This document shows, in pieces, positions 33,650-50,028 of a DNA stretch of 50,028 bases. Source of the stretch: Crocosphaera sp. (GTDB taxonomy: Bacteria > Cyanobacteriota > Cyanobacteriia > Cyanobacteriales > Microcystaceae); the NCBI RefSeq assembly GCF_030064895.1, contig NZ_JASJEB010000114.1:1-50028 (forward strand), in the 5' to 3' direction. The position numbers and the translations under genes were made by a program. Under the pieces are notes generated by a model. The model ran no database searches. It was not told where the DNA came from and saw only the letters and a program-made list of their open reading frames with translations. Each line of letters begins with the position of its first letter. Positions within the stretch are counted from its first letter, which is position 1.

Positions 33650-33690
33650 CAATCTACAATCTGCGAGAATACAATCTGCAATCTGCAATT
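33650..33690. repeat. Period-7 tandem repeat, unit CAATCTG
   Basis: Four clear CAATCTR-type units interrupted by one degenerate unit, directly after the RHH gene. Confidence 0.65.
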
Positions 33691-33905: not shown

Positions 33906-33925
33906 CCTATGTTAATATACATAGG
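33906..33925. promoter_or_regulatory. Palindrome CCTATGT-TAATAT-ACATAGG
   Basis: Perfect 7-base arms around six bases, about 210 bases upstream of the DUF2811-like gene; operator-like but without a known binder. Confidence 0.35.
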
Positions 33926-34133
33926 TCAGAGGTAATTAAGTGGGACAATAAATGTATCTAGTTGTGATTACTAGGTGTTTTTATTACCTTTTTATTCTTA
34001 AGAATAAATGAGTTTGTATATCTCTTAAATCTTTATGATAATGATCAGATTTTAGCCTACTTTAAACTATGCTTTACTAAATCAAATAATACCAATTGTC
34101 TCCATTTTGTCCTTAATTATTGTTAGGAAAAAC

Positions 34134-34355: not shown

Positions 34356-34567
34356 AACCCAAAAAATTAATTCCTTTGCCTTGGAAAACAAGAGAAAGAA
34401 TAAAAGCTTTTTCTCAGGTGTTTCCTGATGTTCCTTTGTTAGAAAGTCCCACCACTGGGGATCAATTATCTCAGGTGATTGATCGACTTCAACCCATCGC
34501 AAAATCAGAAAGTGCTGCTTTTTCTTTATTACGAGAATTAGATTCTTATCGGTGTTACGGTGAATAA
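34352..34567 (+). CDS. Small hypothetical protein, 71 aa
   Basis: This 71-residue soluble protein begins with a basic segment (KPKKLIPLPWKTRERIKAF) and continues with predicted helices (DQLSQVIDRLQPIAKSESAAFSLLRELDSY). It has no cysteine cluster, signal or membrane segment. Its ATG overlaps the stop of the DUF2811-like gene and its end overlaps the next gene by eight bases, so it is clearly part of the coupled unit. I recognise no family. Confidence 0.6.
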   Translation: MKPKKLIPLPWKTRERIKAFSQVFPDVPLLESPTTGDQLSQVIDRLQPIAKSESAAFSLLRELDSYRCYGE

Positions 34568-34886
34568 TTCAAAGGAAAATAAACCGTCTTTTTTTGAACC
34601 GGTTAACCTTTTAATTGCGGTGATTATTATCACCGTGGTTATTATTATTTCTATTTCTAACCTCACAGAAAATCCAGAAAGTCGTCAAATTCGACAAACG
34701 GCTGAAAAAAAACTGAGATTATTTGCTAGAGGTTATAGCCTTAATGCTATTAACTGCGAGGGAGTTGATAATAATAATAATGGGTGGGTTAATTGTCGGG
34801 CTGATGATCGCAAAGGAAATATGCTTTACTTAGAATGTCCCTATAATTTTCCTGAACCTGAATGTCGTTATCTAGAGAAAAATTAG
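34560..34886 (+). CDS. Single-span membrane protein, 108 aa
   Basis: It starts at a GTG overlapping the previous gene by eight bases. Residues about 13-33 form one membrane segment rich in Ile/Val (VNLLIAVIIITVVIIISISNL). The outer part has four cysteines arranged as two pairs (NCEGVDNNNNGWVNC and LECPYNFPEPEC), likely disulfides in the periplasm. The acidic NNNNGWVNCRADD segment could bind calcium. I recognise no family. Its place at the end of the coupled three-gene unit suggests a shared process with the two soluble proteins. Confidence 0.6.
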   Translation: MNNSKENKPSFFEPVNLLIAVIIITVVIIISISNLTENPESRQIRQTAEKKLRLFARGYSLNAINCEGVDNNNNGWVNCRADDRKGNMLYLECPYNFPEPECRYLEKN

Positions 34887-34958
34887 TTGAATTTTAAATA
34901 AAAAGTCGCCCCCTCTCCCAAACTTCTTTCTCCCTAAAGGGAGAGGCTTGAAACCAAA

Positions 34959-34986
34959 ATGTTTAATGTTCAATGTTCAATGTTTG
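34959..34986. repeat. Period-7 tandem repeat, unit ATGTTCA
   Basis: Four near-perfect 7-base units downstream of the membrane protein gene, after a CTCCC-TAAA-GGGAG hairpin at 34930-34944. Confidence 0.85.
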
Positions 34987-35101
34987 GCCACCATTATACT
35001 AATCTTTTAGCATAATAAGTCCTGTAGAACCAAAATAGTATAATAGTAATAATACTGATTTTTTAGCACACTAAAATAGCAATTTAAAGATAGTAAAAAA
35101 A

Positions 35102-35290
35102 ATGCAAACAACAGCAGATTATACTTGTGCCTTTTGTGGAGAATCTAGTACAACTTTTATAGATATTAGTGCAGGTAACTATCAATCTTATATTGAAGAT
35201 TGTCAAGTATGTTGTCGTCCTAATATTCTGTATATAGAAGTTGATGAAAATACCCTCGAAGTAACTATTAATACTGACTATGAAGAGTGA
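35102..35290 (+). CDS. CPXCG motif-containing cysteine-rich protein, 62 aa
   Basis: The spacing CAFCG ... CQVCCRPN matches the small CPXCG family, where two CxxC pairs bind zinc. The rest is acidic (YIEVDENTLEVTINTDYEE). The 62-residue length is normal. The first motif has Ala-Phe instead of Pro-x between the cysteines, a common variation. ATG start in an A-rich leader with no evident Shine-Dalgarno. Function of the family is not established; genes of this kind are usually monocistronic, as here. Confidence 0.8.
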   Translation: MQTTADYTCAFCGESSTTFIDISAGNYQSYIEDCQVCCRPNILYIEVDENTLEVTINTDYEE

Positions 35291-35300
35291 GGCAAAATGA

Positions 35301-35321
35301 TTAAACCAAAATTTTCGGTAA
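35301..35321. repeat. Copy of the IS200/IS605-like tail sequence
   Basis: TTAAACCAAAATTTTCGGTAA differs by one base from 10246-10266; here the CCGTCCT hairpin is absent. Confidence 0.5.
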
Positions 35322-35374
35322 AATCGAGATGATCTTCTGTTTGCTGAAGTTGAACAAGTTTTGTTGAGTGTTGG

Positions 35375-35443
35375 ATAATCGTCATTATTCAGTATCTACA
35401 GGGGAAGTAGAGGCGATCGCCTTTTTAAAATAAGCGATCGCCT
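35375..35443. repeat. Dispersed repeat ending in paired HIP1 hairpin, copy 1
   Basis: ATAATCGT...CAGTATCTA...TAGAGGCGATCGC followed by a second HIP1 in inverted position, so AGGCGATCGC/GCGATCGCCT form a hairpin between convergent genes. The first 46 bases match 48843-48888 with five differences. Confidence 0.75.
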
Positions 35444-35449
35444 GAAAAT

Positions 35450-38050
35450 CTAAGACTCAGGACAAGGAGTCAAAGGAATCTGTTTTGTGCCAATTTCGGC
35501 AAAATCAAAGGATAAATAGGGTTCTTCGGGTGCATCAAAATCTACATCCAAATAACCTACCCAATATCCTGCTTCACCACTGCTATCTCCATCAGTAAAG
35601 ACCTGGGAGAAGTCTAAATTTGCAAATGCCGATGCAATCATACCATCGTTTTTCCCTTGGGCCGAAGCAGTCAAATCTTGTTTAACCGTTTCACCTTGAC
35701 TATTCTTGAAAATGATGGCGATGGGTTTAACATCATAGTCACCAAAGACAACATTAAAGAATAGGGGAGTACCTTCGGGTAATTTCTCCTTAGCTACCTT
35801 GAAGCGGAACTCAAAACCAGGAGTGTTGGGTAAAGTTTTGGGGTCACCATCAGGGAAAGAATTTCCGTAGGTGGGAGAAGTCTTATAACCGAACACTTTA
35901 CCCAAAGAAAGATCCGTATAATCAGACCCTTGACTGCCCATATCTTCAAAACCGTCACCAGTGAGGTAAGTTCCAGCAACTTCGGCATCGGAACGGTTAT
36001 CAAAAGGATCACCTGCATCACGGTTACTGATTTTACCATCTCCATTGAAGTCGGGAAGGAAATCATTAACAGATAAAACACCCTGACCATCAACATTAAT
36101 GGCTTCACCAGAGGCAGATTTTAGCCCTGTACCATCTTTAAAACCGAAGCCATCAAAATCACCGATACGAATGGTACTAAATGCCCCAGGAATCGGTTTA
36201 TTGGGGTCACAGGCTTCAATTGGGGGTTCAGGTTCACAAGGTTTAGTTGAGAGAATAGAGACATTATCTAAGGCAGGACCTTGAGGGACATCATCTTGAC
36301 TAACAAAGGTTAAGGTTGTGGCCGAATCCTTTGCTGTAAAAGTCCAGGTTTTGTTTTGCCATCCCATATCTGAACCAGATTTACCAGTGGTGTCAAAGGT
36401 AAAAGTAGCAGAGTCTCCTCCTGCTGATAGTTTGAGTGATCTTTGCGTTTGGGCAACACTAGTACCAGGATTTCCTGCTAAATCAAAGGTCACTTTATAA
36501 GTTTTACCAGGAACAGTTTTGAAGGTTTGTTGAATTCCTCCAGCCGCAAGACCTGATAAATCAAGACTGCGACTTCCTTGAGAAGCTTGCCACAATGAAC
36601 CGACATAATCAACATTACCTGTACTTACAGACCAATCAGCAATACCAGTGGAACCTTTAGACAAGTTAGCAAAAGATGAGTCTAGATTTTGTCCTAATTC
36701 AAAACCACCATTCTTAATTAAATTTTCTTCAGGACAATCTGGGGCAGGGGGTTCAGTTTCACAGGGTTTAGCACCAGTTGCGTTGAAGTTATCGAAGGCA
36801 AAACCCCCACCAGTGATGCGTTTTACTCCAGAAATGCGAATAAAACTAATATCCTGACCTTTATCGGGGAAACTGAAGTTATAAGGCAAAGCATCATAAG
36901 TACCAGCTACTTCACCAGCCGGGATGTTACCAGGGGTTAAAATGGTGCTAATTACCTTACCATTGGCATCTAGAGCTTCAATTTTGTATTGTTCTCCAGC
37001 ATCAATATCCCAAAGTTGGCCAGAAGCACTTTGAACAGGGGTTCCAGAATAAACCACCAAAAAGTCTGCCTGTTTTTTGTTGGGGACATTATTAAACACA
37101 TTGAAACCATCAGGGGCGCGAAGTAACCAGTCACCGCCTTCTTTTGTCGGTGTTTTGTCGATATCAGCAACACCTTTGCTTGTATAACCAACAACTGAAG
37201 CACGACCATCTTTACGACTTTCCAAGACAGCTTTTTTATCAATCTTTAAATCGCGATTACTATCAAATCCGAAAGTAACCACTGTTCCTTGATCGTAGTA
37301 AGAACTGGTTAAAGCAGCATTGTCAACTGGGGCTAAACCACCTGGGGTTGTTTCAAAACCAATAGTTCTGGTTGATATAAATGGCTCACAATCGCCATTG
37401 TCTGATGTAGCTGCGATTGGTGGGTTTTTATAGAGAATGCTCCAATGAGTAGTTTTCGGACCTCGTTCTTTGGTACTCGATGTAGAAACACAGAGGAAAT
37501 TGTCTTCACACCCATAATTCTTGGTGTCTAAATAACTATCATCAAATCCATTCTGTAAATAAATTTCATCACTAGACATTACCGAAGTCCCAGGTTGTTT
37601 ACCTGTGGCAGAAACAATAGTCCAGGTTCCTGTTCCTGCACCTCTGGTGGGGGTACTAGCAGTGGAAACACAAAGATCATTAGCTTCACATCCTCGATTT
37701 CTGGTATCTAAATAGCTACCATCAAATCCATTCTTTAAATAGACTTTGTCATTGTATAAAACAGGTGCGTCTGCTTCCTTTCCAGTAGCAGAAACAATAG
37801 TCCAACTTCCTGTTCCTGCACCTCTGGTGGGGGTACTAGCGGCTGAAACACAAAGAACATTATCTTCACATCCTCGGTTTCTGGTATCTAAATACCCTCC
37901 GTCCCCTCTCCAAAGATTGGGGATATAGTATTCTTCCCCATAGGTAACTTCGGGGTTAGTTTGAGCAAAGGCAGGTTGCCCCACCATCATTAACATCAAG
38001 GCCAACGCTATCAGTATTACCTGAAAGCTTCTCAGAATTTTCTGTTTCAT
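35450..38050 (-). CDS. Secreted multidomain protein with three-fold repeat, DUF642-like and shared C-terminal domain
   Basis: The first 29 residues are a Sec signal (LALMLMMVGQPAFAQ). Residues about 36-215 are three copies of a roughly 60-residue unit (YLDTRN-GCE-N-LCVS-ST--RG, ending in W-I), which suggests a beta-trefoil lectin-like fold. Residues about 220-430 form an unrecognised beta domain (IGFETTPGG, then GGGFAFDNFNATG). Residues about 440-600 resemble DUF642/choice-of-anchor C (LIKNGGFELGQ, KTYKVTFDLAGNP, LDNVSIL). Residues 613-866 are the domain shared with the two neighbouring secreted proteins, with a calcium-loop-like [16 protein letters not shown]. There is no membrane anchor or sorting tail. 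A carbohydrate-binding, extracellular role is inference. Confidence 0.85.
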   Translation of the reverse strand: MKQKILRSFQVILIALALMLMMVGQPAFAQTNPEVTYGEEYYIPNLWRGDGGYLDTRNRGCEDNVLCVSAASTPTRGAGTGSWTIVSATGKEADAPVLYNDKVYLKNGFDGSYLDTRNRGCEANDLCVSTASTPTRGAGTGTWTIVSATGKQPGTSVMSSDEIYLQNGFDDSYLDTKNYGCEDNFLCVSTSSTKERGPKTTHWSILYKNPPIAATSDNGDCEPFISTRTIGFETTPGGLAPVDNAALTSSYYDQGTVVTFGFDSNRDLKIDKKAVLESRKDGRASVVGYTSKGVADIDKTPTKEGGDWLLRAPDGFNVFNNVPNKKQADFLVVYSGTPVQSASGQLWDIDAGEQYKIEALDANGKVISTILTPGNIPAGEVAGTYDALPYNFSFPDKGQDISFIRISGVKRITGGGFAFDNFNATGAKPCETEPPAPDCPEENLIKNGGFELGQNLDSSFANLSKGSTGIADWSVSTGNVDYVGSLWQASQGSRSLDLSGLAAGGIQQTFKTVPGKTYKVTFDLAGNPGTSVAQTQRSLKLSAGGDSATFTFDTTGKSGSDMGWQNKTWTFTAKDSATTLTFVSQDDVPQGPALDNVSILSTKPCEPEPPIEACDPNKPIPGAFSTIRIGDFDGFGFKDGTGLKSASGEAINVDGQGVLSVNDFLPDFNGDGKISNRDAGDPFDNRSDAEVAGTYLTGDGFEDMGSQGSDYTDLSLGKVFGYKTSPTYGNSFPDGDPKTLPNTPGFEFRFKVAKEKLPEGTPLFFNVVFGDYDVKPIAIIFKNSQGETVKQDLTASAQGKNDGMIASAFANLDFSQVFTDGDSSGEAGYWVGYLDVDFDAPEEPYLSFDFAEIGTKQIPLTPCPES

Positions 38051-38129
38051 GATTAATTCTCCAAAATGATTGAGTTGTTTAATGTTTCCTGCTTAGAGCA
38101 ATTTTCATTTGCATAGATTACAAACGTGA

Positions 38130-38160
38130 GTTAGGAGTTAGGAGTTCGGAGTTAGGAGTT
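38130..38160. repeat. Period-7 tandem repeat, unit GTTAGGA
   Basis: Four units with one substitution; reverse complement of the array at 24253-24291. Confidence 0.85.
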
Positions 38161-38274
38161 ATAATTTTTTTAACGAGAAAATGAAGGTTTGAGACTTTTG
38201 ATTTGAGTCAGTTTTCTCGAAATTTCCTTATATCGAACTCAGGTTACAAACTCAAAGAAAAATACTCCCCACAC

Positions 38275-38334
38275 TTCCCACCCTCACTAAACTGAGATTT
38301 TGATACACCCAATTGAAAACTGCTATTAGGGCGA
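38275..38334 (+). repeat. 60-base dispersed repeat, copy 2
   Basis: Gap-free match to 24065-24124 with nine differences; followed directly by the GCGACTGCATCAAGA element. Confidence 0.75.
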
Positions 38335-38383
38335 CTGCATCAAGACGCGATCGCTTATTTTCAAAAAGCGATCGCCTAAAAAT

Positions 38384-40663
38384 CTAAGATTTAGGACAAG
38401 GAGTCAAAGGAATCTCTTTAGTAGCAATCTCGGCAAAATCAAAGGCTAAAGTAGGTTCATCGGGGGCATCGAAATCTACATCTAAATAACCTAACCAATA
38501 ACCTGCTTCACCATTGGTATCACCATCAGTAAATACTTGGTCAAACTCCAGGGAAAGATAAGAGGTTTGAATCATGCCATCTTTTTTCCCTTTCGCTGAG
38601 GCAGTAACTTCTTTAGTCACCGTATTACCATCACCACTGTTGAGAATAACCTGTACCGGTTCCACGTCAAAGTCACCCAAGACAACATTTAAGAATAAAG
38701 GAGTCCCTTGAGGCAGTTTATCTTTAGCTACCTTAAAGCGGAACTTAAATCCAGGAGTATTGGGGAGGGTTTTAGGATCACCATCGGGGAAAGAATTTCC
38801 ATAAGTAGAAGAACTCTTATTAGCGAAAGCTTTACCTAAGAAAAGATCCGTATAATCAGAGCCGGTGCTACCAGTATCTTCGTAACCATCACCAGTGAGG
38901 AAAGTTCCTGCAACTTCTTCCCCAGAACGGTTGTCGAAAGGATCACCACCATCACGGTTGCTGTACTTGCCATCTCCATTGAAGTCGGGTAGGAAATCTT
39001 GGGTAGACAGAAGACCAGAACCATCACGGTTAACAGGGCCACCATAGGCTGCGGTTAACCCTTCGCCATCGCCGAAACCAAAGCCATCAAAGTCCCCGAT
39101 ACGAATGGAACTGAATGCCCCAGGAATGGGTTTATTGGGGTCACAGGGATTGGTTTCGGGTTCTGGTTCGGAGCAGTTTGAGAGAACAGCAACATTATCT
39201 AAGACTGGACCATAACCACTATCATCTTGACTGACAAAGGTTAAGGTTGTTGTTGAATCCGTTGCCTTAAAACTCCAGGTTTTGTTTTCCCAACCCATAT
39301 TCTGATAGGATTTACCAGTAATATCAAAGGTAAACTCAGCCGACTCTCCTGCTGCTGATACCTTCATGGATTTTTGTTTTGGTCCAGAACGGGGATTTCC
39401 TGCTAAATCAAAGCTCACTTCATAAGTTTGACCAGGGACAGTATTGAAGGTTTGTTGAACTCCTCCAGCAGAACGAACCTCACCTTCTAAATCGACACTG
39501 CGAGTTCCTTCAGAAGCTTCCCATAATGTACCCATATAATCAACATCAGCCGAACTGATAGACCAGTCAGGAATCTTAGTTGAACCTTTAGGCAATCGGA
39601 CAAACCATGAGCCAGCATTTGGTCCTGATTCAAAACCACCATTCTTAATTAAATTATCTTGAGAGCAATCAGGTTTACTAGGTTCGGTTTGGGGTTCAAG
39701 AGATGCAAAGGTTAAATTATCAATACCAATGGGATCATCTCCAATCATCTCAATGGTTTTAATCCCTTCAAGGTCACTCAAATCCAACTTAGTCAGGGCT
39801 GCGTCAGCACCGGTTGAACTGGGAAAGGCTTTGGTGTAAAGAGTTTTTCCTTGAGCATTTAATACCTTAACGTTAATCCCTTGACCCGAATCAACGTCAG
39901 CCATAGATAAACAGAGATGATCTACTGGTTCACTGAAGTTGATCGCCCGGCGATAGTTTTTGGGACGATAAGCAGCACGGGCCCCTGGTTCTGTCAAAAA
40001 GCGACCCTTAAAGTTAGCTTGATCGGAAGCAATCACTTGGTTCGCCCCAGCTTGGCCACCAAATCCTCCTTGAGATGCACCCACTGTCAGGACGTTAAGT
40101 CCTTCAAAAGAAACGGTGACACCGCCACCGGAAATGGCATTGGCCTTCCCATTTAAAGGTTCTGCTGTATCGAAGTCAATTAAAGCAGTCTTATCTCCTT
40201 CTAAACAAGCATCGGGTCCTGTAGTAGGAGGAATAACTGCGGTTGTGCCAACGGTAAAACTAGAACGGGTTTGAACGTTATAGCCACCGGCGGACCAGTT
40301 AAAATAGCTTCTTACTTCATACTCCCCGGCAGGAAGTCCTCTAAAGGTGTAAGTACCATTTTGTTTGCCTTGAGTGTAGAAATATTGACCATAGCGATTA
40401 TCTGGGTTACTCGCAGGGCTAATGGTAATCCAGTCTCTGGCATTGCCAGGAAACCCAGAATAATCTACTACAATCTGCTCATTAGCTGCATAATCGGTCT
40501 TTTGGGTTTTAGCGATCGCTGTCCCTACTGCTACTGTGTAGTTGTTTAACAGTTGGTTACTAGAGGAATTGGTTTGAGCTAACGTAGGTTGTCCCACCAT
40601 CATTAACATCAAGGCTAACGCCATCAGTATTACCTGAAAGCTTCTTAATAGATTTCGTTTCAT
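38384..40663 (-). CDS. Secreted multidomain protein, paralogue 2 (Ig-like, DUF642-like, shared C-terminal domain)
   Basis: It has almost the same signal peptide as the gene downstream (LALMLMMVGQPTLAQ) and the same leader bases, indicating tandem duplication. Residues about 35-140 form an Ig-like beta domain (VVDYSGFPGNARDWITISP, then GTYTFRGLPAGEYEVRSYF). Residues about 155-335 are a beta domain with IDFDTAEPLNG and IGIDNLTFASLEP. Residues about 345-500 are DUF642-like (LIKNGGFESGPN, SFDLAGNPRSG). Residues 506-759 are the shared domain (IRIGDFDGFGFGDGEG, DFNGDGKYSNRDGGDPFDNR). No anchor is visible, so release to the medium or loose surface association is expected. Function unknown. Confidence 0.85.
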   Translation of the reverse strand: MKRNLLRSFQVILMALALMLMMVGQPTLAQTNSSSNQLLNNYTVAVGTAIAKTQKTDYAANEQIVVDYSGFPGNARDWITISPASNPDNRYGQYFYTQGKQNGTYTFRGLPAGEYEVRSYFNWSAGGYNVQTRSSFTVGTTAVIPPTTGPDACLEGDKTALIDFDTAEPLNGKANAISGGGVTVSFEGLNVLTVGASQGGFGGQAGANQVIASDQANFKGRFLTEPGARAAYRPKNYRRAINFSEPVDHLCLSMADVDSGQGINVKVLNAQGKTLYTKAFPSSTGADAALTKLDLSDLEGIKTIEMIGDDPIGIDNLTFASLEPQTEPSKPDCSQDNLIKNGGFESGPNAGSWFVRLPKGSTKIPDWSISSADVDYMGTLWEASEGTRSVDLEGEVRSAGGVQQTFNTVPGQTYEVSFDLAGNPRSGPKQKSMKVSAAGESAEFTFDITGKSYQNMGWENKTWSFKATDSTTTLTFVSQDDSGYGPVLDNVAVLSNCSEPEPETNPCDPNKPIPGAFSSIRIGDFDGFGFGDGEGLTAAYGGPVNRDGSGLLSTQDFLPDFNGDGKYSNRDGGDPFDNRSGEEVAGTFLTGDGYEDTGSTGSDYTDLFLGKAFANKSSSTYGNSFPDGDPKTLPNTPGFKFRFKVAKDKLPQGTPLFLNVVLGDFDVEPVQVILNSGDGNTVTKEVTASAKGKKDGMIQTSYLSLEFDQVFTDGDTNGEAGYWLGYLDVDFDAPDEPTLAFDFAEIATKEIPLTPCPKS

Positions 40664-40888
40664 GATTAATTCTCGAAAATGATTGAGTTGTTTAAGGAGC
40701 GATGCAGAGCGATCTTGAAGGTTTCCTTCTTATGGCGACTGCATCAAGAGGCGATCGCTTTTTTAATTTAGAGATGCGATCGCTGTACCTACTGCTACTG
40801 TGTAGTTGTTTAAGAGAATGCAAAGACTCCCCACACTCCCCACCCCTCCCACACTCCCTTAAAAACGGCTATAAATCACAGGATTGCA
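40664..40888. repeat. Intergenic region carrying a duplicated fragment of the neighbouring gene
   Basis: Bases 40776-40813 repeat 40512-40549, which lies inside the start of the upstream secreted-protein gene, with one difference in 38. The region also has GCGACTGCATCAAGA (40735-40749) and two HIP1 sites. Confidence 0.75.
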
Positions 40889-42880
40889 CTAATTACTGGT
40901 GTTACCGAAGTTGATATCGGAGACGATTTCATCTTCACCGAGAGTAACTTTAGCAAATCCACCGCTTGGGGCAGTTTGTTTGTAACCAGAGTCCACAACT
41001 TCTCTGACAACGTAAGTTCCTGGGGCTAAATCTGTAAATTGATACAGTCCTTGGTCGTTGGTTTTCTGAGAAGGTTCGTTACTATCCAGGGTTCCATTGT
41101 TATTCAAATCGAGGTAGATAGTCACACCTGGTAACACAGGTTCTAAACCACTGGTTCCAGTAGTAGTAGTGGTTCCGCTTGTACCATTGAAAACGGCAAT
41201 CAATTCATCGGTAGTGGTGAAAACCTCGGCCCGAGAGTCAATTTTTGCTAAGGGAGGAATTTTAGCTCCTGAACCGGCACCGAAAGCGGTGACGTTGACT
41301 TTCGTATTTTGCAAGGTATTGGCTTCATCTACGTAGTTGGTTTGAAATATGTTGAATTGTGGAGTTCCTTCTAAACCACCACCGGGTACACCGTCAGAAA
41401 TGAACACTACATTACCTTTCCCTGTGGGTGCATTTAACCTTTGTAAGGTGCTGATGGCTAACTGTAAATCGGATTCATAGTTAGTTCCAGTACCCCGGCC
41501 GCCCCGCCCGTTAACGTAGTAAGCTCCAACCTCAAAGGAGTTGGTGGCGGTATTGGCGAAAAAGCGGTTGTAGTCCATCTTAATTGAAGAAAGAAGGTCT
41601 TCTACATCCGGTTTACCGTTGTTATTTTTATCTGCTCCAGGAGAGGTTGCTAACTGAATACCAGGGGCAACTGGGTCCATATCTACGTTACTGGCTTTAT
41701 AACCAAAGCCAATAATACTTACTTTTCCTGTGTCGCCAAATCCTTGATCGATCAGTTGTTGATTTAAGGTGATAAAGGCTTTTAGTTCACCATCGAGGAT
41801 ACTATTGACGTTACCATCTCCATTAACATCTCCCATATTGCTACCTTGAAATCTCTCTTTGGTACTGGGGGAGAGATCGATGACGAACATTGCATAAGGA
41901 GGATTTCCAGAAATCAGGGTGGAGCGATCGCCGTCTCCATCGCTGTCATCCCATTTTAAGCCACGAATTTCACCTTTATACTCTTTGGGAGGACAAGGTG
42001 CTAAGGGAATCTGTTGGGTGCCTATTTCGGCGTAGTCAAAGGCTGTATAGGGTTCATCGGGAGCATCCAAGTCCACGTCTACTGCACCGATCCAATAACC
42101 GGGTTGTTTGCCTTTTTTGTCTCCATCTTTAAAGACTTGGGTAAATTTTAAGGGGACATAGGCTGGTTCAACGATCCCGTTACGTCCTCCTGTAACTTTC
42201 TCGGAGGCGGTTAGGGGAATAGTAAGGGTGTTACCACTAACTGCTCTGAGATTGATTTGTCCGGGTTCAACGTCATAGTCTCCGAGCATGATGTTGAAGA
42301 ATAAGGGGGTGCCTTCTGGTAGTTTATCTTTTTCTACTAAAAAGCGGAATTTAAACCCGGGTTGGTTGGGTAGGGTTTTGGGATCGCCATCAGGAAAGGG
42401 TCGACCATAGGTGGGGGAGGTCTTATAACCGAAGGATTTTCCTAAAGATAGGTCGGTATAGTCGGAGCCGGTACTACCATCATCGATGTAGTTATGACCC
42501 TGGAGATAGGTCCCTGCTAGTTCTTTATCGGAACGGTTATCGAAGGGATCTCCTTCTCCTCGGTTACTGATTTTGCCATCTCCGTTAAGGTCGGGCAAAA
42601 CGTCTCCTGTGCTGATAATACCTTTATTATCAGCGTTGATGGCTTTGCCATCGGAGCCAACATAGCCTTTTCCTACACCATAACCAAAGCCATCTACATC
42701 GCCAATGCGGATGAAGTCAAAGGCGTTAGCAAGGGGGGTGGGGTTACACTGTGCTTCGGTTGCTGCTTGGGCTAATGCTGGAACTGGAGATACCAGCACT
42801 GACATAGCACCTAACAACATTACCATTAGTAATGCAATCAGTTTCTTTTTCATTATTAACTTAGTGGTTGTACTAGGCAT
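40889..42880 (-). CDS. Secreted protein with shared domain at the N-terminus and a vWA domain inserted in an SdrD-B-like domain
   Basis: A signal peptide ([19 protein letters not shown] to ALAQA) follows a nine-residue extension; a start at the ATG at 42853 would give a more standard signal. Residues about 46-300 are the domain shared with the two downstream genes ([37 protein letters not shown]). Then [17 protein letters not shown] opens an SdrD-B-type domain. It is interrupted by a von Willebrand A domain (about 325-570; [26 protein letters not shown]) and resumes with [20 protein letters not shown] and [11 protein letters not shown]. The vWA suggests metal-dependent adhesion. No C-terminal anchor is present. 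Confidence 0.85.
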
Positions 42881-43273
42881 TGGACTATTTACTTATTAGA
42901 AAAACTAATAAGTGTTGTACACAGAAATTTTGACGGCTTATAAAAGTCAAAAAAGCCTAAATTGTTCTAACTTTTGAGGGTAATTTTTTTACTTATTCGT
43001 TAGACAAGAGGATATTATCATGGATTGGATTTGTACAAAATAAGTTTATGAAAATTAACTTCTTATTTCTTCTGTTTTTAAGTTGATTATCAACGATAAT
43101 ATTTAACAATATAGGTTTTATTTAACTTATTCTTAAATTATTAAGGTCACCAAATTATAACAAGATTGATTTTCCTCACAAAAGGATACTACTTAATGAT
43201 ATGATGCACAGTTGCTTAAAAAACTGTTTTTCGAGTGAGTTTTAAGAGAATTTTAGGGTATATTCCCATAGCG

Positions 43274-43306
43274 TAATACACCAAAATCTTGGTTTTTGGT
43301 GCGTTA
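43274..43306. repeat. Palindromic element TAATACACCAAAA/TTTTGGTGCGTTA
   Basis: Thirteen-base arms with two mismatches around seven bases; resembles a miniature palindromic repeat rather than a terminator, as it lies far from any stop codon. Confidence 0.6.
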
Positions 43307-43570
43307 CAGCATAAAAATGATATGATGGTTGGTTCAAAAGAACTTTTTGTGTTCAGCGTTCAGCTTTTGAATGAAAAAAATTGATCAATACTTTTCCAAT
43401 TAAGCAAAATTAGGTTATAGTAAGCTTTAAGGATTAAAGGTCTTCCCAAAAGTAGTCAAAACCCATTGATTACTTATCTTTGAGTTCAAGCTTTGTTTGT
43501 CTCATATTTCTGATTAGGAACCTCTGGCGTTCCTGGGAGGACAGTTAGTGACAACATGAAAACCTTAGCC

Positions 43571-43587
43571 AATGATTGACAATCATT
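43571..43587. promoter_or_regulatory. Palindrome AATGATT-GAC-AATCATT just before the cluster's first gene
   Basis: Perfect 7-base arms around three bases, ending 16 bases before the ATG at 43604. It lies where a repressor or leader structure could control the whole cluster; the binder is unknown. Confidence 0.45.
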
Positions 43588-43603
43588 TATTGCTTAAATA
43601 ACA

Positions 43604-45373
43604 ATGACAAATAATGGATTTAGAGTAAATAGAGGACTCAAAACCATCTCACAATTAAAACCCTCAAAATATGAAGCACAAGACCATGAAACTTACGAAA
43701 AAATGAGACAATTAACTCTATCTTATTCTACAGAAGGGTTAATTCGGTCTCAAAAATGTTTGATAAGATCAGGTCAATTAGGACTTCATAGTGCTTGTAG
43801 CATTATTAATCCAGGAGTTTTATATAAAGATAATCAATTTTCGATGCTGTGTCGTGGGGAACCCGATGCAACAGTATGGTTTGGAGATTTTTTGGAACGT
43901 CAGGCAACACCGTTATGGTGTACTTTAGACAATAATTTTAATGTAAAAACTAACTTTCCTTTAACCTATTCAGAAATTCCTGCAAACAGTCGTCCAGAAG
44001 ACTGGCGTTTGTTTGAATATAATGGCAAAATTTACAGCAATCATAGTATTTATACCTTACTAGATAGAGAGCGATGGATTATCCGTTCTCGTCCTGGTAT
44101 TGGTGAGATTAATCTTGATAAGAAAACTATAGAATTACGTTGCATACTCGAACCTCCTTTTGAACCTTCAAGAGAAGAAAAAAATTGGAGTTTCTTTGTT
44201 CATGAAGGGGTTTTGATGTGCATTTATTCTTTCAATCCTTACATCATTTTAGAGGTAGATTTAGAAAAAGGAACCACTCATAAAATATTAGAAGAAAACC
44301 TTACCTATCAATGGTACGACAAGAAAAAGTTTGTGGGAAATAGTGCTAATGTGGTTTCCTGGGATGATGAACACTATATCACCTTTGTTCATGATTTTCT
44401 GGAACCCAAACATGAACAAAGAAACCGTGCATATATGCAATATGGGGTTCTGATTAGCAAAAAAACTCTCTTACCCACCAACATTATTCCTCGTCCCTTA
44501 GTGATGGGAGGAGACGAACCGGGGAGACATCCTGGGGTGCATTATACCAGTTCTCTAATTAACCGAGAGGATGGATTATATGGGTTTTACGGACAGGGAG
44601 ACACCCATATTGGACTGGTGGTGTTTAATAAAAGTCCTCTCAATCAATTATTTGCACAATATCCAGTATACAGTCAAAATAACGCATCTTTAGGAATATG
44701 TAGGGGAATTGATCCCAGAAAAGGAATTATTGTTTCCTTTCCTAGAAATGGTTTAAACTGGGTACGTTATTGTCTCGAACAGTTAACAGGGTTACGAACC
44801 GCCGGACGACTGAAACTGATAGAAGAGGGGGACTTAGGGGTTTATAGAACTCATCATGTTCTAGAATCAGATATGGCCGAATCTTGTTATTGTCCTTTTT
44901 ATGACTCGGATGGTAAACCCTTACATCAAAAAGTTGTTTTAATTATTAGAGATTATCGCGAGTCCTTTCTAAGGATGACGAAAAACAAACAAGATACTAC
45001 TCCTACAGCGCAACAAATTAAAGACGGAGATATTTTTCACTTTAGGGACTATTTTAACAATCTTAAAGCTTATGATGAATTTAAGGGGGAAAAACTATTA
45101 GTTTATTATCCTAATCTTGTTAGTGATTTCTCAGAAATGATCAAGATTTTAGAGTTCTTGGGAGTGAGTTACGATCTCAATAATTTTGACTTAGAATATC
45201 ATCGTCAACAATCCTTAGATTTGTATGATATTCAACACAAATCTTATACCAAAGATAATCTTTATGATTTTACTTTCCATCAAAGTCAAGTCGACGCTGA
45301 TGTTATTGAAGCGATAGATGATTTTGTGGACAAAAACTATCGAGATTTAGCCCAGAAATATTTACAATTATAA
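43604..45373 (+). CDS. Fusion protein: GH130-like beta-propeller plus type A sulfotransferase
   Basis: Residues about 40-360 of this 589-residue protein resemble the five-bladed propeller of GH130 enzymes: SIINPGVLYKDNQFSMLCRGE, PEDWRLFEYNGKIYSNHS (like the family EDPR strand), EKNWSFFVHEGVLMCIYSFN (like the family KNW motif) and GGDEPGRHPGVHYTSSL. Residues about 374-589 resemble PAPS-dependent sulfotransferases: IIVSFPRNGLNWVRY (5'-phosphosulfate loop) and VVLIIRDYRESFLRM (3'-phosphate site). The propeller would bind or cleave mannoside-like glycans and the second domain would sulfate them; this is inference. No signal peptide, so it is cytosolic. It heads a five-gene plus-strand cluster. 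No clear Shine-Dalgarno. Confidence 0.75.
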   Translation: MTNNGFRVNRGLKTISQLKPSKYEAQDHETYEKMRQLTLSYSTEGLIRSQKCLIRSGQLGLHSACSIINPGVLYKDNQFSMLCRGEPDATVWFGDFLERQATPLWCTLDNNFNVKTNFPLTYSEIPANSRPEDWRLFEYNGKIYSNHSIYTLLDRERWIIRSRPGIGEINLDKKTIELRCILEPPFEPSREEKNWSFFVHEGVLMCIYSFNPYIILEVDLEKGTTHKILEENLTYQWYDKKKFVGNSANVVSWDDEHYITFVHDFLEPKHEQRNRAYMQYGVLISKKTLLPTNIIPRPLVMGGDEPGRHPGVHYTSSLINREDGLYGFYGQGDTHIGLVVFNKSPLNQLFAQYPVYSQNNASLGICRGIDPRKGIIVSFPRNGLNWVRYCLEQLTGLRTAGRLKLIEEGDLGVYRTHHVLESDMAESCYCPFYDSDGKPLHQKVVLIIRDYRESFLRMTKNKQDTTPTAQQIKDGDIFHFRDYFNNLKAYDEFKGEKLLVYYPNLVSDFSEMIKILEFLGVSYDLNNFDLEYHRQQSLDLYDIQHKSYTKDNLYDFTFHQSQVDADVIEAIDDFVDKNYRDLAQKYLQL

Positions 45374-45382
45374 GAGGATAAC

Positions 45383-46480
45383 ATGAGCATCATTAATCCT
45401 CCACCTGGAAATTATCACGGTCATAGACCAGCATCCAGATTGGGTTCTTCCAAGTATCAGACCCAAGATGATACTACTTATAAACAGATGAAACAATTAA
45501 CCTTGTCTCATTCAAAGTCAGGTCTAATTCAAGTTAAAAAAAGTTTAATTCAATCCGGTCAATTAGGAAATGATACTGCTTGTAGTATCATTAATCCAGG
45601 TGTATTATATAAGGATAATCAATTCTCTTTACTTTGTCGTGGAGAACCCGATGAACAAGTCTGGTTTGGGGATTTTTTAGCTTGTCAAGCAACACCGTTG
45701 TGGTGTACCTTAGACAATGAATTAAACCTTACCAATAGCTTTCCCTTGAGTTATCAAGACATTCCCCCAAGAAGTCGTCCCGAAGATTGGCGTTTGTTTG
45801 AATATCAGGGCAAACTATACAGCAATCATAGTGTTTATACTATCTTAGATCGCGATCGATGGATGATTCGTTCTCGTCCAGGAATTTCAGCAGTTGATTT
45901 GCAAAGACAAAAACTAGAATTATGCTGGATGTTAGACCCTCCTTTTGAACCTTCTCCAGAGGAAAAAAACTGGAGTTTTTTTGTTCATAATGGGTGTTTA
46001 ATGTGTCTTTATTCTTTTAAACCCTATATCCTTTTGGAAATCGACCTAAAACGGGGAACAGTTTATAAAATACTAGAAGCAACTCTAGCTTATCAATGGT
46101 ACGATAAGGGGAAATTTGTGGGGAACAGCACCAATTTAGTCTGCTGGGATGATGATTACTATATCATGTTCATTCACGATTATTTGGAACCTAAAAATGA
46201 GCAAAGAAATCGTTCTTATATGCAGTATGGCATCTTAATCAGCAAAAAAACTCTTTTACCTACCCATGTCATTCCTCGACCTTTAATAATGGGAGGAGAT
46301 GAACCTGGCCGACATCCGGGGGTTCACTATACTAGTTCATTAGTTAACCGAGAGGATGGACTATATTCCTTTTATGGACAAGGAGATAGTCACATCGGGA
46401 TGGTACTTTTTAATAAGGATAAACTGGCTGAATTATTTGAGCAATATGCTGTCAGTTTAGCTACAACTACCTTGAGGTAA
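45383..46480 (+). CDS. GH130-like beta-propeller protein, stand-alone copy
   Basis: The 365 residues align along their length to the propeller half of the upstream fusion (for example CSIINPGVLYKDNQFSLLCR, RPEDWRLFEYQGKLYSNHS, EKNWSFFVHNGCLMCLYSF, GGDEPGRHPGVHYTSSL). The two copies are closely similar, so the duplication is recent or kept under strong constraint. It ends just where the sulfotransferase half begins in the fusion. AAGAGGA precedes the ATG, nine bases after the fusion gene's stop. It is cytosolic by sequence. Whether it is a glycoside hydrolase, a phosphorylase or only a binding domain cannot be told. Confidence 0.75.
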   Translation: MSIINPPPGNYHGHRPASRLGSSKYQTQDDTTYKQMKQLTLSHSKSGLIQVKKSLIQSGQLGNDTACSIINPGVLYKDNQFSLLCRGEPDEQVWFGDFLACQATPLWCTLDNELNLTNSFPLSYQDIPPRSRPEDWRLFEYQGKLYSNHSVYTILDRDRWMIRSRPGISAVDLQRQKLELCWMLDPPFEPSPEEKNWSFFVHNGCLMCLYSFKPYILLEIDLKRGTVYKILEATLAYQWYDKGKFVGNSTNLVCWDDDYYIMFIHDYLEPKNEQRNRSYMQYGILISKKTLLPTHVIPRPLIMGGDEPGRHPGVHYTSSLVNREDGLYSFYGQGDSHIGMVLFNKDKLAELFEQYAVSLATTTLR

Positions 46481-46507
46481 TAGTTAGAAAAATTTAAGGA
46501 ACAAAAT

Positions 46508-47239
46508 ATGCTTATTTCTGATGAATACAAATTTATTTTTATCCATATTGGTAAAACCGGTGGAACCAGTGTAGAAAAAGTCCTCTGTGATTATCTAAAT
46601 TTAGATTTTAAGGTAACTAAAAAGAGTCCCGAGGGGAAATGGTGGAAACATATTTGGGCCCAAGGTATGAAAAAATATGTTGGGGAGGAAATTTGGAATA
46701 ATTACTTTACTTTTGCCTTTGTCCGTAATCCCTATGATATGATTTTGTCTCTTTATTCCATGTATACTCAATATCCTGAATATACCAATCCCCAAAAATA
46801 TCCGAGACTTTATCATCCTTGGAACCAATATAAAAGTTTTGAAGACTTTATTTTGAGTATGGGAAAGCGTCAACATGAACCCAATGAAAAATGGCGATTA
46901 CAACTTAATAAATTGGGTGTGAAAGGAACTATGAACTTATGGTATAGTATTGAAAACTTACAAAGTAGTTATTTAACCAATAGTTGGAAAGGAAAAGAGC
47001 ATGGTAAAGGCGAAATTTTAGTTGATTTTGTCGGACGATATGAAAATTTATCCCAAGATTTTCATTATGTATGTGAGAGGGTTGGATTGCCTAAACTTGA
47101 ATTAGTTCAACATGGGGCAACTCGACATAAACCCTATCAAGAAATGTACACAGAACAGATGAAAAAAATTGTTTATAATCATTCTTCTGTTGATATTGAA
47201 AGGTTTGGTTACTCGCTGAAAAATCAACTTATTAGTTAA
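46508..47239 (+). CDS. Type B sulfotransferase (Sulfotransfer_2-like), copy 1
   Basis: This 243-residue protein has the 5'-phosphosulfate loop FIFIHIGKTGGTSVEKVL at the N-terminus and the 3'-phosphate motif FTFAFVRNPYDMILSLYS near residue 75-92, the pattern of carbohydrate sulfotransferases of the Sulfotransfer_2/3 group. It is a different type from the sulfotransferase half of the fusion gene. AAGGA lies about ten bases before the ATG, and the gap to the propeller gene is 27 bases. No membrane anchor is present, unlike Golgi relatives. It is closely similar to the gene at 48136. The acceptor is unknown. Confidence 0.8.
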   Translation: MLISDEYKFIFIHIGKTGGTSVEKVLCDYLNLDFKVTKKSPEGKWWKHIWAQGMKKYVGEEIWNNYFTFAFVRNPYDMILSLYSMYTQYPEYTNPQKYPRLYHPWNQYKSFEDFILSMGKRQHEPNEKWRLQLNKLGVKGTMNLWYSIENLQSSYLTNSWKGKEHGKGEILVDFVGRYENLSQDFHYVCERVGLPKLELVQHGATRHKPYQEMYTEQMKKIVYNHSSVDIERFGYSLKNQLIS

Positions 47240-47372
47240 TAAATTAACAGCAAAAAATTGCTATATTTTAAGCTAATAAATATTTCCACTTCTCCCATTC
47301 TTCAATTCTTCCCGTAAATCACTGCAAAGTTATTTAACCACTAATTGCTCAATTATTTGGAGTTAGAAAATC

Positions 47373-48077
47373 ATGAAAGTTATTGATGCTAAAGGAATAA
47401 AAAAAATTAACCGTCAAAAAGGGATTATTGTTTCTTATCCCAGAAATGGTTTAAACTGGGTTCGTTATTGCATTGAATATTTTTCTGGACTACAAACACC
47501 CGGTAAAACAAAAATTTATGACCAGGGTAAATTTGCTGTTTATCGAACTCATAATGTTAAGCGGCCTGGTCCTCGGAGTTCTTGTTATTGTGCTTTTTAT
47601 GATCATGATGGTAAACCCATCCATAAAAAGGTTCTTTTATTACTAAGAGATTATCACGAATCTTATATTAGGGTTGCCAAAAGAAAACAAAATGGAGTAG
47701 TTCCCACAGCAGAAGAAATTAGAAATGGGAAGATTTTTAACTTTAAAGACTACTTTGAAAATCTAAAAGCTTATGATCAATATTCAGGGACAAAAATGAT
47801 TGTTCGTTATCAGAATCTTGTCAAAGATTTCTCCGAAATTACTAAGATTTTAGACTTCTTTGGTTTTTCCTATGATTTAAGCAATTTTGATATAGAAGAA
47901 CACCGTCAAAAATCAATAAATCTGTATGATACACAACACAAATCCTATAGTAAAGATAATCTTTATAATTTCACCTTCCATCAATCTCAAGTAGACCCCG
48001 AGGTCAATAAGGCCATTGATGAATTTGTTGATGCAAATTATAAAAAGTTAGCTGACAAATATTTACGCTTAGGTTAA
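47373..48077 (+). CDS. Type A sulfotransferase, stand-alone copy
   Basis: The 234 residues align to the C-terminal half of the fusion at 43604: GIIVSYPRNGLNWVRYCIE, YRTHNVK, SCYCAFYDHDGKP, LLLLRDYHESYIRV, then QHKSYSKDNLYNFTFHQSQV against the matching segment in the fusion. A short own N-terminus (MKVIDAKGIKKINRQ) replaces the propeller. The PAPS-loop and RD motifs are kept. It lies 133 bases after copy 1 of the type B gene. It is the partner missing from the stand-alone propeller gene. Confidence 0.78.
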   Translation: MKVIDAKGIKKINRQKGIIVSYPRNGLNWVRYCIEYFSGLQTPGKTKIYDQGKFAVYRTHNVKRPGPRSSCYCAFYDHDGKPIHKKVLLLLRDYHESYIRVAKRKQNGVVPTAEEIRNGKIFNFKDYFENLKAYDQYSGTKMIVRYQNLVKDFSEITKILDFFGFSYDLSNFDIEEHRQKSINLYDTQHKSYSKDNLYNFTFHQSQVDPEVNKAIDEFVDANYKKLADKYLRLG

Positions 48078-48079
48078 GA

Positions 48080-48102
48080 AACCGTCAGGATGGACGGGTT
48101 CT
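48080..48102 (+). repeat. CCGTC/GACGG hairpin between cluster genes
   Basis: AACCGTC-AGGATG-GACGGGTT lies between the stop at 48077 and the ATG at 48136, resembling the CCGTCC hairpin at 10225. It may be an attenuator or an IS-end relic. Confidence 0.4.
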
Positions 48103-48135
48103 AAGAAGGATTAAAACAGATTCAAACAACCAATT

Positions 48136-48846
48136 ATGCTCATTTCTCACGAATACAAATTTATTTTTATCCATATTGGCAAAACCGGTGGAACCAGTGT
48201 GGAAAAAGTCCTCTGTGATTATCTAAATCTGGATTTTGAAGTAACTAAAAAGAATCCAGAGGGAGAATGGTGGAAACATATTTGGGCCAAATACATGAAA
48301 CAATACATTGGTGAAGATATCTGGAACGATTATTTTACCTTTGCTTTTGTTCGTAACCCTTTAGATATGATTCTCTCTTTGTATTCCATGTACACCCAAT
48401 ATCCGGAATACACCAACCCAGAACAACATCGCGATTTATATCACCCTTGGAATCAATATAAAGACTTTGAAGACTTCATTTTGAGTATGGGGGAACGCAA
48501 ACATGAACCCAATGAAAAATGGCGATTTCAACTGGATAAGTTAGGGGTGAAAGGCACTATGAATCTATGGTATGGTATCGAAAACCTACAAAGTAGTTAT
48601 TTAACCGATAGCTGGAAAGGGAAAGAAAATGGCAAAGGAGAGATTCTCATAGATTTTGTTGGTCACTATGAAAATTTATCTCAAGATTTTCATTATTTTT
48701 GCGAACAAGTTGGACTCCCCAAACTTGATTTAATTCGTCATGGTGCAACTAAACATAAACCTTATCAGGAAATATACACCGAGAAAATGAAAGAAGTTGT
48801 CTATGAACACTCATCCATAGATATTGAACGTTTTGGTTACAAATAA
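48136..48846 (+). CDS. Type B sulfotransferase, copy 2
   Basis: The 236 residues are nearly collinear with the gene at 46508 (both MLIS-EYKFIFIHIGKTGGT, FAFVRNP-DMILSLYSMY, HEPNEKWR, GTMNLWY-IENLQSSYL). PAPS motifs are intact in both. It lacks the last seven residues of copy 1. Its stop codon is inside a dispersed repeat that ends in a HIP1 hairpin. It is the last gene of the five-gene cluster. Two intact copies suggest either dosage or two acceptor specificities; this cannot be decided from the sequence. Confidence 0.8.
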   Translation: MLISHEYKFIFIHIGKTGGTSVEKVLCDYLNLDFEVTKKNPEGEWWKHIWAKYMKQYIGEDIWNDYFTFAFVRNPLDMILSLYSMYTQYPEYTNPEQHRDLYHPWNQYKDFEDFILSMGERKHEPNEKWRFQLDKLGVKGTMNLWYGIENLQSSYLTDSWKGKENGKGEILIDFVGHYENLSQDFHYFCEQVGLPKLDLIRHGATKHKPYQEIYTEKMKEVVYEHSSIDIERFGYK

Positions 48847-48909
48847 TCGTTATTCTTCAGTATCTAGAGGAGAATTAGAGGCGATCGCAATTTAAGAAAG
48901 CGATCGCTT
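48843..48909. repeat. Dispersed repeat ending in paired HIP1 hairpin, copy 2
   Basis: Overlaps the cluster's final stop codon. It matches 35375-35420 with five differences, then a pair of HIP1 octamers forms GCGATCGC/GCGATCGC and a probable 3' end structure. Confidence 0.75.
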
Positions 48910-49026
48910 AATTGTAACCGCTATCCTAAAAAAAGAATAACCCTTAATGCTACTAGAAAACCTTTTTGCAAGAGGTATATTGAAGAGAAATAAAATATAA
49001 TTATACATAGTCTTTTAAAAATAAAT

Positions 49027-49584
49027 ATGGACCCAGCAGAGTACCTAGCATTTGTTCCTCTCTTGTTTTACGGAATTGCTTTAGCAGACCTACTAGGACA
49101 GTGGCGACGTTTTTTTGACAGGAATTATTTTTATTTTCCCTATTTCTTGACCACTATTATATTCACAGAAGCAGGGGTTTGGAATGTATATCAATATCTC
49201 GAAATCGTCTCTCGTTTAGAAGGTGTTTCCTATGCACAGTATTGGTTGTACCTCGTGCAGCCGATCATTTTTCTGCTTACGGTGAGCGCATTAACCCCAG
49301 AATTTGAAATCAAAGATACCGAATCTTACTTCAAAGAACGGCTTTCTCTGGTGTACGGACTCCTAGCCATATTTATTTTTAGTCATTTTTTTAGCGGATT
49401 TAGCTCAATGATAGCTGTGTCTTTTCTCAAATATACTCGAATTATCCTCGCTTTCCTTAGTATCATAATCGCCTTCATAAAAAGGATTTGGCTTATCTAT
49501 CTGATGGCAGTTATAGCAGTCGCCAAAGCTATTAGGACATTTTTCTGTTCCCTGTTCCCTGTTCCCTGTTCCCTTAAAATATAA
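49027..49584 (+). CDS. Multi-spanning membrane protein, 185 aa, C-terminus encoded by a repeat
   Basis: ATG start in an AT-rich leader. About five hydrophobic segments are visible: AEYLAFVPLLFYGIALADLL, FPYFLTTIIFTEAGVWNV, WLYLVQPIIFLLTVSAL, VYGLLAIFIFSHFF and IILAFLSIIIAFI. The pattern resembles small conserved bacterial inner-membrane proteins with a RRFFDRNYF loop, but I recognise no family. The last residues, CSLFPVPCSL, are the translation of the TGTTCCC tandem repeat at 49546-49573, so the original C-terminus has probably been lost or replaced. It may be a decaying gene. Independent of the sulfotransferase cluster by spacing. Confidence 0.6.
   Translation: MDPAEYLAFVPLLFYGIALADLLGQWRRFFDRNYFYFPYFLTTIIFTEAGVWNVYQYLEIVSRLEGVSYAQYWLYLVQPIIFLLTVSALTPEFEIKDTESYFKERLSLVYGLLAIFIFSHFFSGFSSMIAVSFLKYTRIILAFLSIIIAFIKRIWLIYLMAVIAVAKAIRTFFCSLFPVPCSLKI
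49546..49573. repeat. Period-7 tandem repeat, unit TGTTCCC, inside a coding frame
   Basis: Four perfect 7-base units that form the 3' end of the membrane protein frame. Confidence 0.9.
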
Positions 49585-49771
49585 TTTATGTGTCCTAACT
49601 AGCCTGTCTATTGCTATATCTGGTTCTTAAGTCTATTGCTAAGAATAACCTATAGTTGAATCTTCTGAAATCCCTAACCTAAAGGGAAAATTTTTTGTCT
49701 ATTTCTGTAAATCATCCCTTAATAATGCAACGCCCTAAAACTGAAACGCAAATCAACAGCCCTTCGGGCGA

Positions 49772-49803
49772 GGCAGAAGGCAGGGAGCAGGAGGCAGGAG
49801 GGA
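49772..49803. repeat. Period-7 tandem repeat, unit GGCAGGA
   Basis: Four 7-base units (GGCAGAA, GGCAGGG, AGCAGGA, GGCAGGA) next to a GCCCTTCGGGC hairpin. Confidence 0.85.
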
Positions 49804-49928
49804 AGATTTTTAGTTAGGGTTTGCTGAAAAAGTTACTAAAAAATTTATGCTACTTTTGACAAAGAATTTTCTAACAAATTAATAAGTTTAACTACAGAAA
49901 AATGGTTTAACAGGGATGTCAAAAGAAG

Positions 49929-49974
49929 TCCCCATCTATAAATTCTAAAAGAATACCCAAATTTTAGATGGGGA
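49929..49974. repeat. Long hairpin TCCCCATCTA.../...TAGATGGGGA
   Basis: Ten-base arms that can extend inward through AAATT/AATTT with one unpaired base, around a loop of about 16 bases; IS-end-like or a terminator of a gene beyond the window. Confidence 0.5.
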
Positions 49975-50028
49975 TGAATTTTGACCAATATATTAACGTG
50001 CAAAGCACAACCTTGCTTAGATGATTTG

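Follow-up and report, generated by a model that had tools for sequence, protein, structure and literature searches.

A conserved cyanobacterial locus linking a GH130-like propeller and two kinds of sulfotransferase-like proteins to leader-bearing surface proteins

To our knowledge, sulfated material at the cyanobacterial cell surface is known mainly as exopolysaccharide. The locus described here, from Crocosphaera sp., brings together genes for a GH130-like propeller (P), for two kinds of sulfotransferase-like proteins (A and B) and for leader-bearing surface proteins that share a domain named IRIGD. It lies in a stretch of 50,028 nucleotides, bases 1-50028 of contig C183 in a genome of 5.5 Mb, and this whole stretch is called the window below.

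Several described systems share parts with this locus; the papers cited by PMC number are drawn on in extract. The mannoside phosphorylases and beta-1,2-mannosidases of CAZy family GH130 have in common with the propeller the fold and the C-terminal aspartate of the -1 subsite, weakly an asparagine, and a Glu-Asp pair (GH130_NC) in a forced alignment only. The propeller differs from them in having no PF04041 match and only 11-17% identity, in its fusion to a sulfotransferase-like domain and in its linkage to surface proteins. The dual mannosyltransferase-phosphorylases of Leishmania (family GT108; 6q4x, 6q4z, 6q50), of which 6q4z uses guanosine diphosphate mannose (GDP-mannose) according to its title, resemble it by modelled fold alone, and they are eukaryotic enzymes of mannogen metabolism (PMC8950772). 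In Xanthomonas, the sulfotransferase gene raxST adjoins the gene of an exported client, RaxX, which was the only documented case of bacterial tyrosine sulfation as of 2019 (PMC6637879). RaxX, however, is a peptide of 60 residues with a type I exporter, whereas the present locus has large leader-bearing proteins, two kinds of sulfotransferase and a propeller. The xss cluster for synechan in Synechocystis PCC 6803 also contains two sulfotransferases of distinct subfamilies, but in the extract of PMC8205485 these are accompanied by eight glycosyltransferases and by Wzx, Wzy and PCP proteins, and no such family is common to the loci studied here. A pairing of GH130 with sulfotransferases was not found described in a literature search that covered neither subscription papers nor preprints. 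The parts are known, and their combination is new as far as the literature was searched.

An earlier note on the window had described a unit of five plus-strand genes at 43604-48846, mostly closely spaced and in the order propeller-A fusion, propeller, B, A, B, and the open reading frames (ORFs) and their identities agree with this. P1 (43604-45373, 589 residues) joins a propeller (residues about 40-355) to a type-A sulfotransferase-like domain (358-589), and P2 (45383-46480, 365 residues) is a stand-alone propeller. They are followed by B1 (46508-47239, 243 residues), the stand-alone type-A protein A2 (47373-48077, 234 residues) and B2 (48136-48846, 236 residues), with successive gaps of 9, 27, 133 and 58 bp. 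Identity amounts to 71% between the P1 propeller and P2, 61% between the A part of P1 and A2, and 84% between B1 and B2. The five genes are nevertheless not the whole of the conserved unit, and the boundary at 43604 did not hold. Across a divergent intergenic region of 723 bp (42881-43603, from the coordinates) the unit continues to three minus-strand genes at 35450-42880 that encode IRIGD surface proteins, the one other conserved element, which the earlier note had missed. All three proteins start with a hydrophobic leader. IRIGD protein 3 (40889-42880) has the domain at 41990-42730 together with SdrD_B-like and weak VWA-like parts, while proteins 2 (38384-40663) and 1 (35450-38050) both combine DUF642 with a C-terminal IRIGD domain, at 38387-39124 and 35453-36190, respectively.

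ORFs of at least 120 codons, 77 in total, were compared by family over seven loci, namely positions 33601-50028 of the window and the further loci L004-L009, with overlapping shorter frames dropped. Only three families are common to two or more loci, the P/A, B and IRIGD proteins, and each of them is present in all seven. The seven intact loci span four cyanobacterial families and four genera, and the linkage thus extends beyond close relatives. In each of the six further loci a P-A fusion is followed by B, with a second A in between in L005, which argues that the association of the modules is not due to chance. The gap between the cluster and the nearest IRIGD gene is 723 bp in the window, 719 in L005, 510 in L006 and 497 in L008. 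It measures 84 bp in L009 (30 from the start of the longest frame) and 181 bp in L004, where the closest IRIGD ORF is truncated and a long copy first follows at 2.8 kb; in L007 it is 3.6 kb, and the domain runs off the contig with its first 33 positions visible. In L004, L009 and L006 an IRIGD ORF has the same orientation as the P gene that comes next. No polymerase, flippase, exporter or ordinary glycosyltransferase was found among the five genes, nor is any such family common to the seven loci, of which the unshared flanks are partly annotated. Hitch-hiking on a mobile element as the sole cause of the linkage was considered and dropped, as no other ORF family is common to the loci.

The distribution of the modules was surveyed in 386 genomes drawn from the phylum and 388 drawn from the order, with alignments as queries except for one phylum survey that used one protein. 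In the phylum set, P was found in two genomes, IRIGD in three and A in one. In the order set, P occurs in eight genomes (seven intact, one a remnant), IRIGD in 13 and both in eight, a co-occurrence with a one-sided Fisher probability of 1.1e-13 in a test that ignores common descent. Judged from contig coordinates, six of the seven genomes with an intact cluster are those of loci L004-L009. The remnant, in genome G143, is a P fragment of 32 residues beside the last 59 or so positions of an IRIGD domain, and is a decayed cluster. The order-level search for A and B covered 18 chosen genomes. A is present in six of them, exactly those with intact P; these six alone have B matches with E < 1e-140, and matches to Sulfotransfer_2 that are weaker bring the total to 14. 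A contig scan with one protein and peptide patterns, which reaches close relatives only, found relatives of the cluster in cyanobacteria. Plasmids (queried with P2, A2 and the IRIGD domain) and viral contigs (P and IRIGD) yielded no relatives and therefore no sign of carriage by either, and six genomes of the same genus, 79-100% complete, gave no P, IRIGD or A. The rarity of the cluster (seven intact and one decayed copy in 388 genomes) and its patchy presence within one genus make it a good natural comparison.

A hydrophobic N-terminus is present in all 12 IRIGD proteins tested (15-residue Kyte-Doolittle mean 2.0-2.9) and in none of the five cluster proteins (-0.1 to 0.9). Within the unit, leaders are thus confined to the IRIGD proteins, and the loci have no family of polymerases or exporters in common, so that the enzymes would most simply act for the IRIGD proteins. 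On this reading, to which we assign a probability of about 0.38, the locus may serve specifically to furnish these surface proteins with sulfate, probably by means of a mannoside made by the propeller. In the cytosol, the site of synthesis of 3'-phosphoadenosine-5'-phosphosulfate (PAPS), P and its fused A domain would act on a mannose unit as phosphorylases of GH130 or mannosyltransferases of GT108 do, with mannose-1-phosphate or GDP-mannose as the source. B, as a PAPS sulfotransferase, would sulfate the propeller product, and A would assist as a divergent sulfotransferase or by binding the acceptor. Outside the cell, the secreted mosaic IRIGD proteins would carry or bind the sulfated group. 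A mannoside is favoured on account of the candidate mannose-site residues described below, and the GH130/GT108 fold is known to include enzymes that transfer mannose from mannose-1-phosphate (PMC8950772). A compact set of enzymes that occurs only together with a common surface domain would provide a second, testable way of making sulfated surface proteins.

The assignment of the propeller starts from structure prediction. The AlphaFold model of P1 has a mean pLDDT (predicted local distance difference test score) of 67.8, with values mostly of 75-93 in the propeller apart from weaker loops, and lower ones in the A part. A Foldseek search with this model returned 439 rows at E <= 0.001. Among the best 50, which were inspected, rows 1-38 are GH130/GT108 proteins with 11-17% identity to P1, headed by 5ay9 (E 3.7e-12, probability 1.00), and other propellers come afterwards. 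A few of these rows are titled just 'glycosidase' and were taken to be GH130/GT108 on the basis of PMC4264767 or from recall. A profile search of the PDB found the beta-1,2-mannobiose phosphorylase 7fip (E 6.3e-4), and a single-sequence search with P1 gave one weak GH130 row (E 0.32). The model is thus a propeller with a predicted GH130/GT108 fold, and the GH130-like propeller of the earlier note stands; it is named GH130-like, not GH130, because PF04041 does not recognise the family.

In the 7fip alignment, Asp333 of P1 falls on Asp298 in a stretch of 17.2 bits and Asn69 on Asn39 in a stretch of 2.5 bits only. With an offset of 11, these positions correspond to Asp287 and Asn28 of Teth514_1789, which recognises mannose through Asp287, Asn28 and Asp98 (PMC4264767). 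The C-terminal aspartate of the GH130 -1 subsite is present as Asp333, which was aligned with it again in a second profile comparison and is invariant in 12 of 12 copies. Against six GH130 proteins from plasmids, the P profile reached E 6e-6 and a probability of 85% over residues 219-348. By profile comparison, Lys242 and His263 align with the lysine of KxGxG and the histidine of HGV in GH130, which we take to be two of the three basic phosphate-binding residues of the phosphorylases; Lys242 is an alanine in the L006 fusion. The EDWR motif (Glu132-Asp133) falls on EDPR of GH130 under forced global alignment only, another setting placing the pair elsewhere. Together with Asp333, the residues Asn69, Glu132, Asp133 and His263 are invariant in all 12 propeller copies, and the idea that the propeller is a dead scaffold was dropped for this invariance of the candidate key residues. 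The hit list contains, by title, a GDP-mannose-dependent mannosyltransferase (6q4z) and a mannoside synthase (9erg), and the propeller itself may therefore be the 'missing' sugar-transfer enzyme. The earlier statement that the cluster has no glycosyltransferase accordingly holds for the ordinary families but is open to doubt for a propeller of this predicted fold. The locus would also provide a naturally occurring protein in which a mannoside-enzyme fold is joined to a sulfotransferase-like domain, and a small number of precisely defined residues for testing. The stand-alone propellers of L007 (7260-8468) and L008 (7315-8454) bear basic C-terminal extensions, possibly a membrane-binding helix.

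Of the five cluster proteins, B alone receives a family name from Pfam and NCBIfam: B1 and B2 match Sulfotransfer_2 (PF03567) with 60.8 and 56.6 bits (E 2.9e-16 and 5.5e-15; cut-off 22 bits), while single-sequence and profile searches of the PDB with B gave chance rows only. Its motifs are GKTGGTS on the 5' side and R73...S81 on the 3' side. Sulfotransferases depend on a positive residue, a serine and a base (PMC6637879), and all three features are present in B as K16, S81 and H48, invariant in ten of ten copies; the choice of His48, between the motifs, as the putative catalytic base is our own. PAPS could be supplied through the adenosine-5'-phosphosulfate (APS) kinase encoded in the genome.

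A is more divergent. The lysine of its 5' motif is replaced by arginine (PRNG/PRSG) in seven of nine aligned copies and by alanine in the other two (L007, L008), as well as in a third copy, L087, outside that alignment. The serine of the 3' motif is missing, position +8 after R92 being an arginine, R100, in all nine copies, and the nearby Ser97 is an alanine in the stand-alone copy of L005. His60 between the motifs is invariant in nine of nine and would, again by our own assignment, be the base. The claim that the PAPS-binding motifs are intact in every sulfotransferase consequently stands for B and fails for A. Although A has no Pfam row over the cut-off, its kinship is apparent from a comparison with Sulfotransfer_1 (PF00685) proteins encoded in the same genomes (residues 82-166; hhalign probability 93%, pairwise E 3e-7), in which eight of 15 sulfotransferase loci were used and seven dropped as the frame guess gave short pieces; PDB entry 5x2b was matched at E 0.021 only. 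A may have remained a sulfotransferase, though a divergent one, or may be a partner that binds the acceptor without catalytic activity. The A module has been duplicated repeatedly: the linker of the L006 fusion (10001-11929) holds a partial repeat of the A start, and at 8216-8398 L005 retains the C-terminal remnant of another A. L087 (5958-7636; contig C164 of genome G624) is a second P-A fusion in which the propeller is cut short, adjoined by an ORF that looks transposase-like by eye.

The history of the duplicates was followed in trees. The fused propellers are separated from the stand-alone ones of L005-L008, which group together with support 99/97, and the stand-alone A proteins of the window (A2) and L005 are sisters (100/100); stand-alone P and A are, on this sequence evidence, old duplicates that were retained. 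P2 of the window groups with P1 of the window (93/95) and is thus a local duplicate or a converted copy. P1 of the window and of L007, a locus of the same genus by genome search, are 64% identical, compared with 84% for a shared sensor-kinase gene, and this comparison with one gene hints at separate acquisition of the cluster in the two.

The IRIGD domain comprises about 245 residues, begins near the IRIGD motif and has no Pfam family. The proteins that contain it are mosaics with DUF642, VWA or SdrD_B-like parts, and it lies towards the C-terminus in some of them and towards the N-terminus in others. The model of the domain (pLDDT 70.9) is a beta-sandwich with weak fold matches (template modelling score <= 0.39) to a plant synthase, a phloem lectin, sandwich parts of large secreted proteins and carbohydrate-binding modules (CBMs), and a profile search of the PDB gave chance rows only. 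It could be imagined, as a bolder and rather doubtful proposal, that the domain is a portable modification tag on unrelated surface proteins, read before export by the P-A fusion and B, which would attach a sulfated mannoside or a tyrosine sulfate to it. If so, the system would represent a new type of protein sulfation or sulfoglycosylation in bacteria, with a biosynthetic enzyme of GH130 fold in a cyanobacterium. In L004, truncated IRIGD pieces (7388-8002 and 9148-9816) flank a transposon ORF, TnpB-like by eye, at 8015-9175; as both pieces cover the GSDYTD site, they are not simply one gene split in two. In L009, a near relative, a single copy at 3760-4608 is uninterrupted.

Several points weigh against a module dedicated to the sulfation of IRIGD proteins. 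The linkage comes from seven loci, two of which, L004 and L009, are near-identical (97% in P1). IRIGD occurs without P in five of the 13 IRIGD genomes (G172, G633, G640, G644 and G648, two of the five being 81-83% complete) and hence need not have the cluster everywhere. PF04041 has no match in the five cluster proteins at E up to 10 and in none of 11 genomes. The match of the supposed catalytic pair depends on the setting and that of Asn69 is weak, and for these two reasons the probability was lowered to the value given above. A is devoid of two residues reported to be essential in sulfotransferases, and the fold matches of IRIGD are weak and mixed. Finally, we know of GH130/GT108 enzymes as acting on sugars, not on proteins.

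On another, less probable reading the cluster makes a free sulfated mannoside, either an oligosaccharide or a glycolipid, which IRIGD would keep in the matrix as an extracellular lectin, the proteins themselves being unmodified. The invariant mannose-site candidates would be accounted for, and a lectin role is in keeping with a beta-sandwich that has weak CBM and lectin rows and is borne by proteins with DUF642 and other surface modules. Synechan is a cyanobacterial example of a sulfated polysaccharide; yet the extract that describes it also places cyanobacterial sulfotransferases mostly in clusters with polymerase, flippase, exporter or glycosyltransferase genes (PMC8205485), and the absence of any such family common to the loci, of which the unshared flanks are partly annotated, speaks against a free product.

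A direct sulfation of tyrosine, comparable to that of RaxX by RaxST, appears still less probable. The target of A or B, or of both, would be the tyrosine in the motif GS[DE]YTD, sulfated before export, with the propeller as a docking part. This residue, Tyr91 of the domain, is present in 12 of the 13 aligned IRIGD domains from cluster genomes, as no other tyrosine is; in the window it is Tyr141 of protein 3 (codon 42458-42460), Tyr604 of protein 2 (38852-38854) and Tyr711 of protein 1 (35918-35920). Of the 16 distinct copies in cluster genomes that cover the site, 15 have the tyrosine, in each case preceded by Asp or Glu; the count includes the two truncated L004 pieces and leaves out the non-covering copies (L007, L020, L081, L082, L083 and an L088 fragment) and the L088 duplicates of L005. 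The exception, also the 13th aligned domain, is the unlinked PEP-CTERM-like copy L084 of genome G438, with a leucine. In G172, which is 99% complete and in which no P or A was found, both copies have a phenylalanine after an arginine. This pattern is suggestive of a sulfation site without being decisive, and as with raxX and raxSTAB an exported client neighbours the enzymes (PMC6637879). However, G640 (83% complete, no P found) keeps the tyrosine, after a threonine, and a cluster genome, G438, contains the leucine copy. The three non-tyrosine copies may represent a separate domain lineage, two having PEP-CTERM-like ends by eye and one running off its contig, and the flanking S89 and T92 are invariant even without P, which implies that the loop may be structural. 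Moreover, the invariant mannose-site candidates would be left unexplained. A change from Tyr to Phe upon loss of P had been considered as proof of tyrosine sulfation and was dropped, since G640 and L084 do not fit. The two G172 copies lie at contig ends, L018 (9345-9974) running off its contig and L019 (8964-9695) ending PEP-CTERM-like.

Least probable is a catabolic or housekeeping role, in which P would phosphorolyse an internal mannoside, the sulfotransferases would act on unrelated small molecules and IRIGD would be a neighbour by descent or through a mobile stretch: GH130 phosphorylases do take part in catabolic pathways (PMC4264767, which also ties the Teth514 enzymes to GDP-mannose biosynthesis) and L004 and L009 have ORFs close to the cluster that look transposase-like by eye, but these three families are present in all loci where no other is common to even two, their fragments are still adjacent in the decayed copy of G143, and the duplicate P and A copies have long been retained. 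The earlier inference that the set makes or remodels a sulfated glycan or glycolipid may be right; the earlier interpretation as a whole is supported in part, and the observation behind it is confirmed in part.

Some further genes were seen around the cluster. A PMT_2 (protein-mannosyltransferase family) gene at 8241-10025 of L009 adjoins the cluster and has no relative in the other six loci, and a GT2 gene lies in the window at 41 kb from the cluster. The family search of the window left out the ORFs at 10365-16641 and 24364-32982. At 17330-22867 the window encodes a surface protein of 1845 residues that matches cadherin and Chlam_PMP and, weakly and below the cut-off, dockerin, and at 23403-24041 a protein of 212 residues, without a Pfam match, that has a PEP-CTERM-like end by eye. 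The product of 13276-15471 resembles, again by eye, a Ser/Thr kinase joined to a periplasmic-binding-protein-like receptor half.

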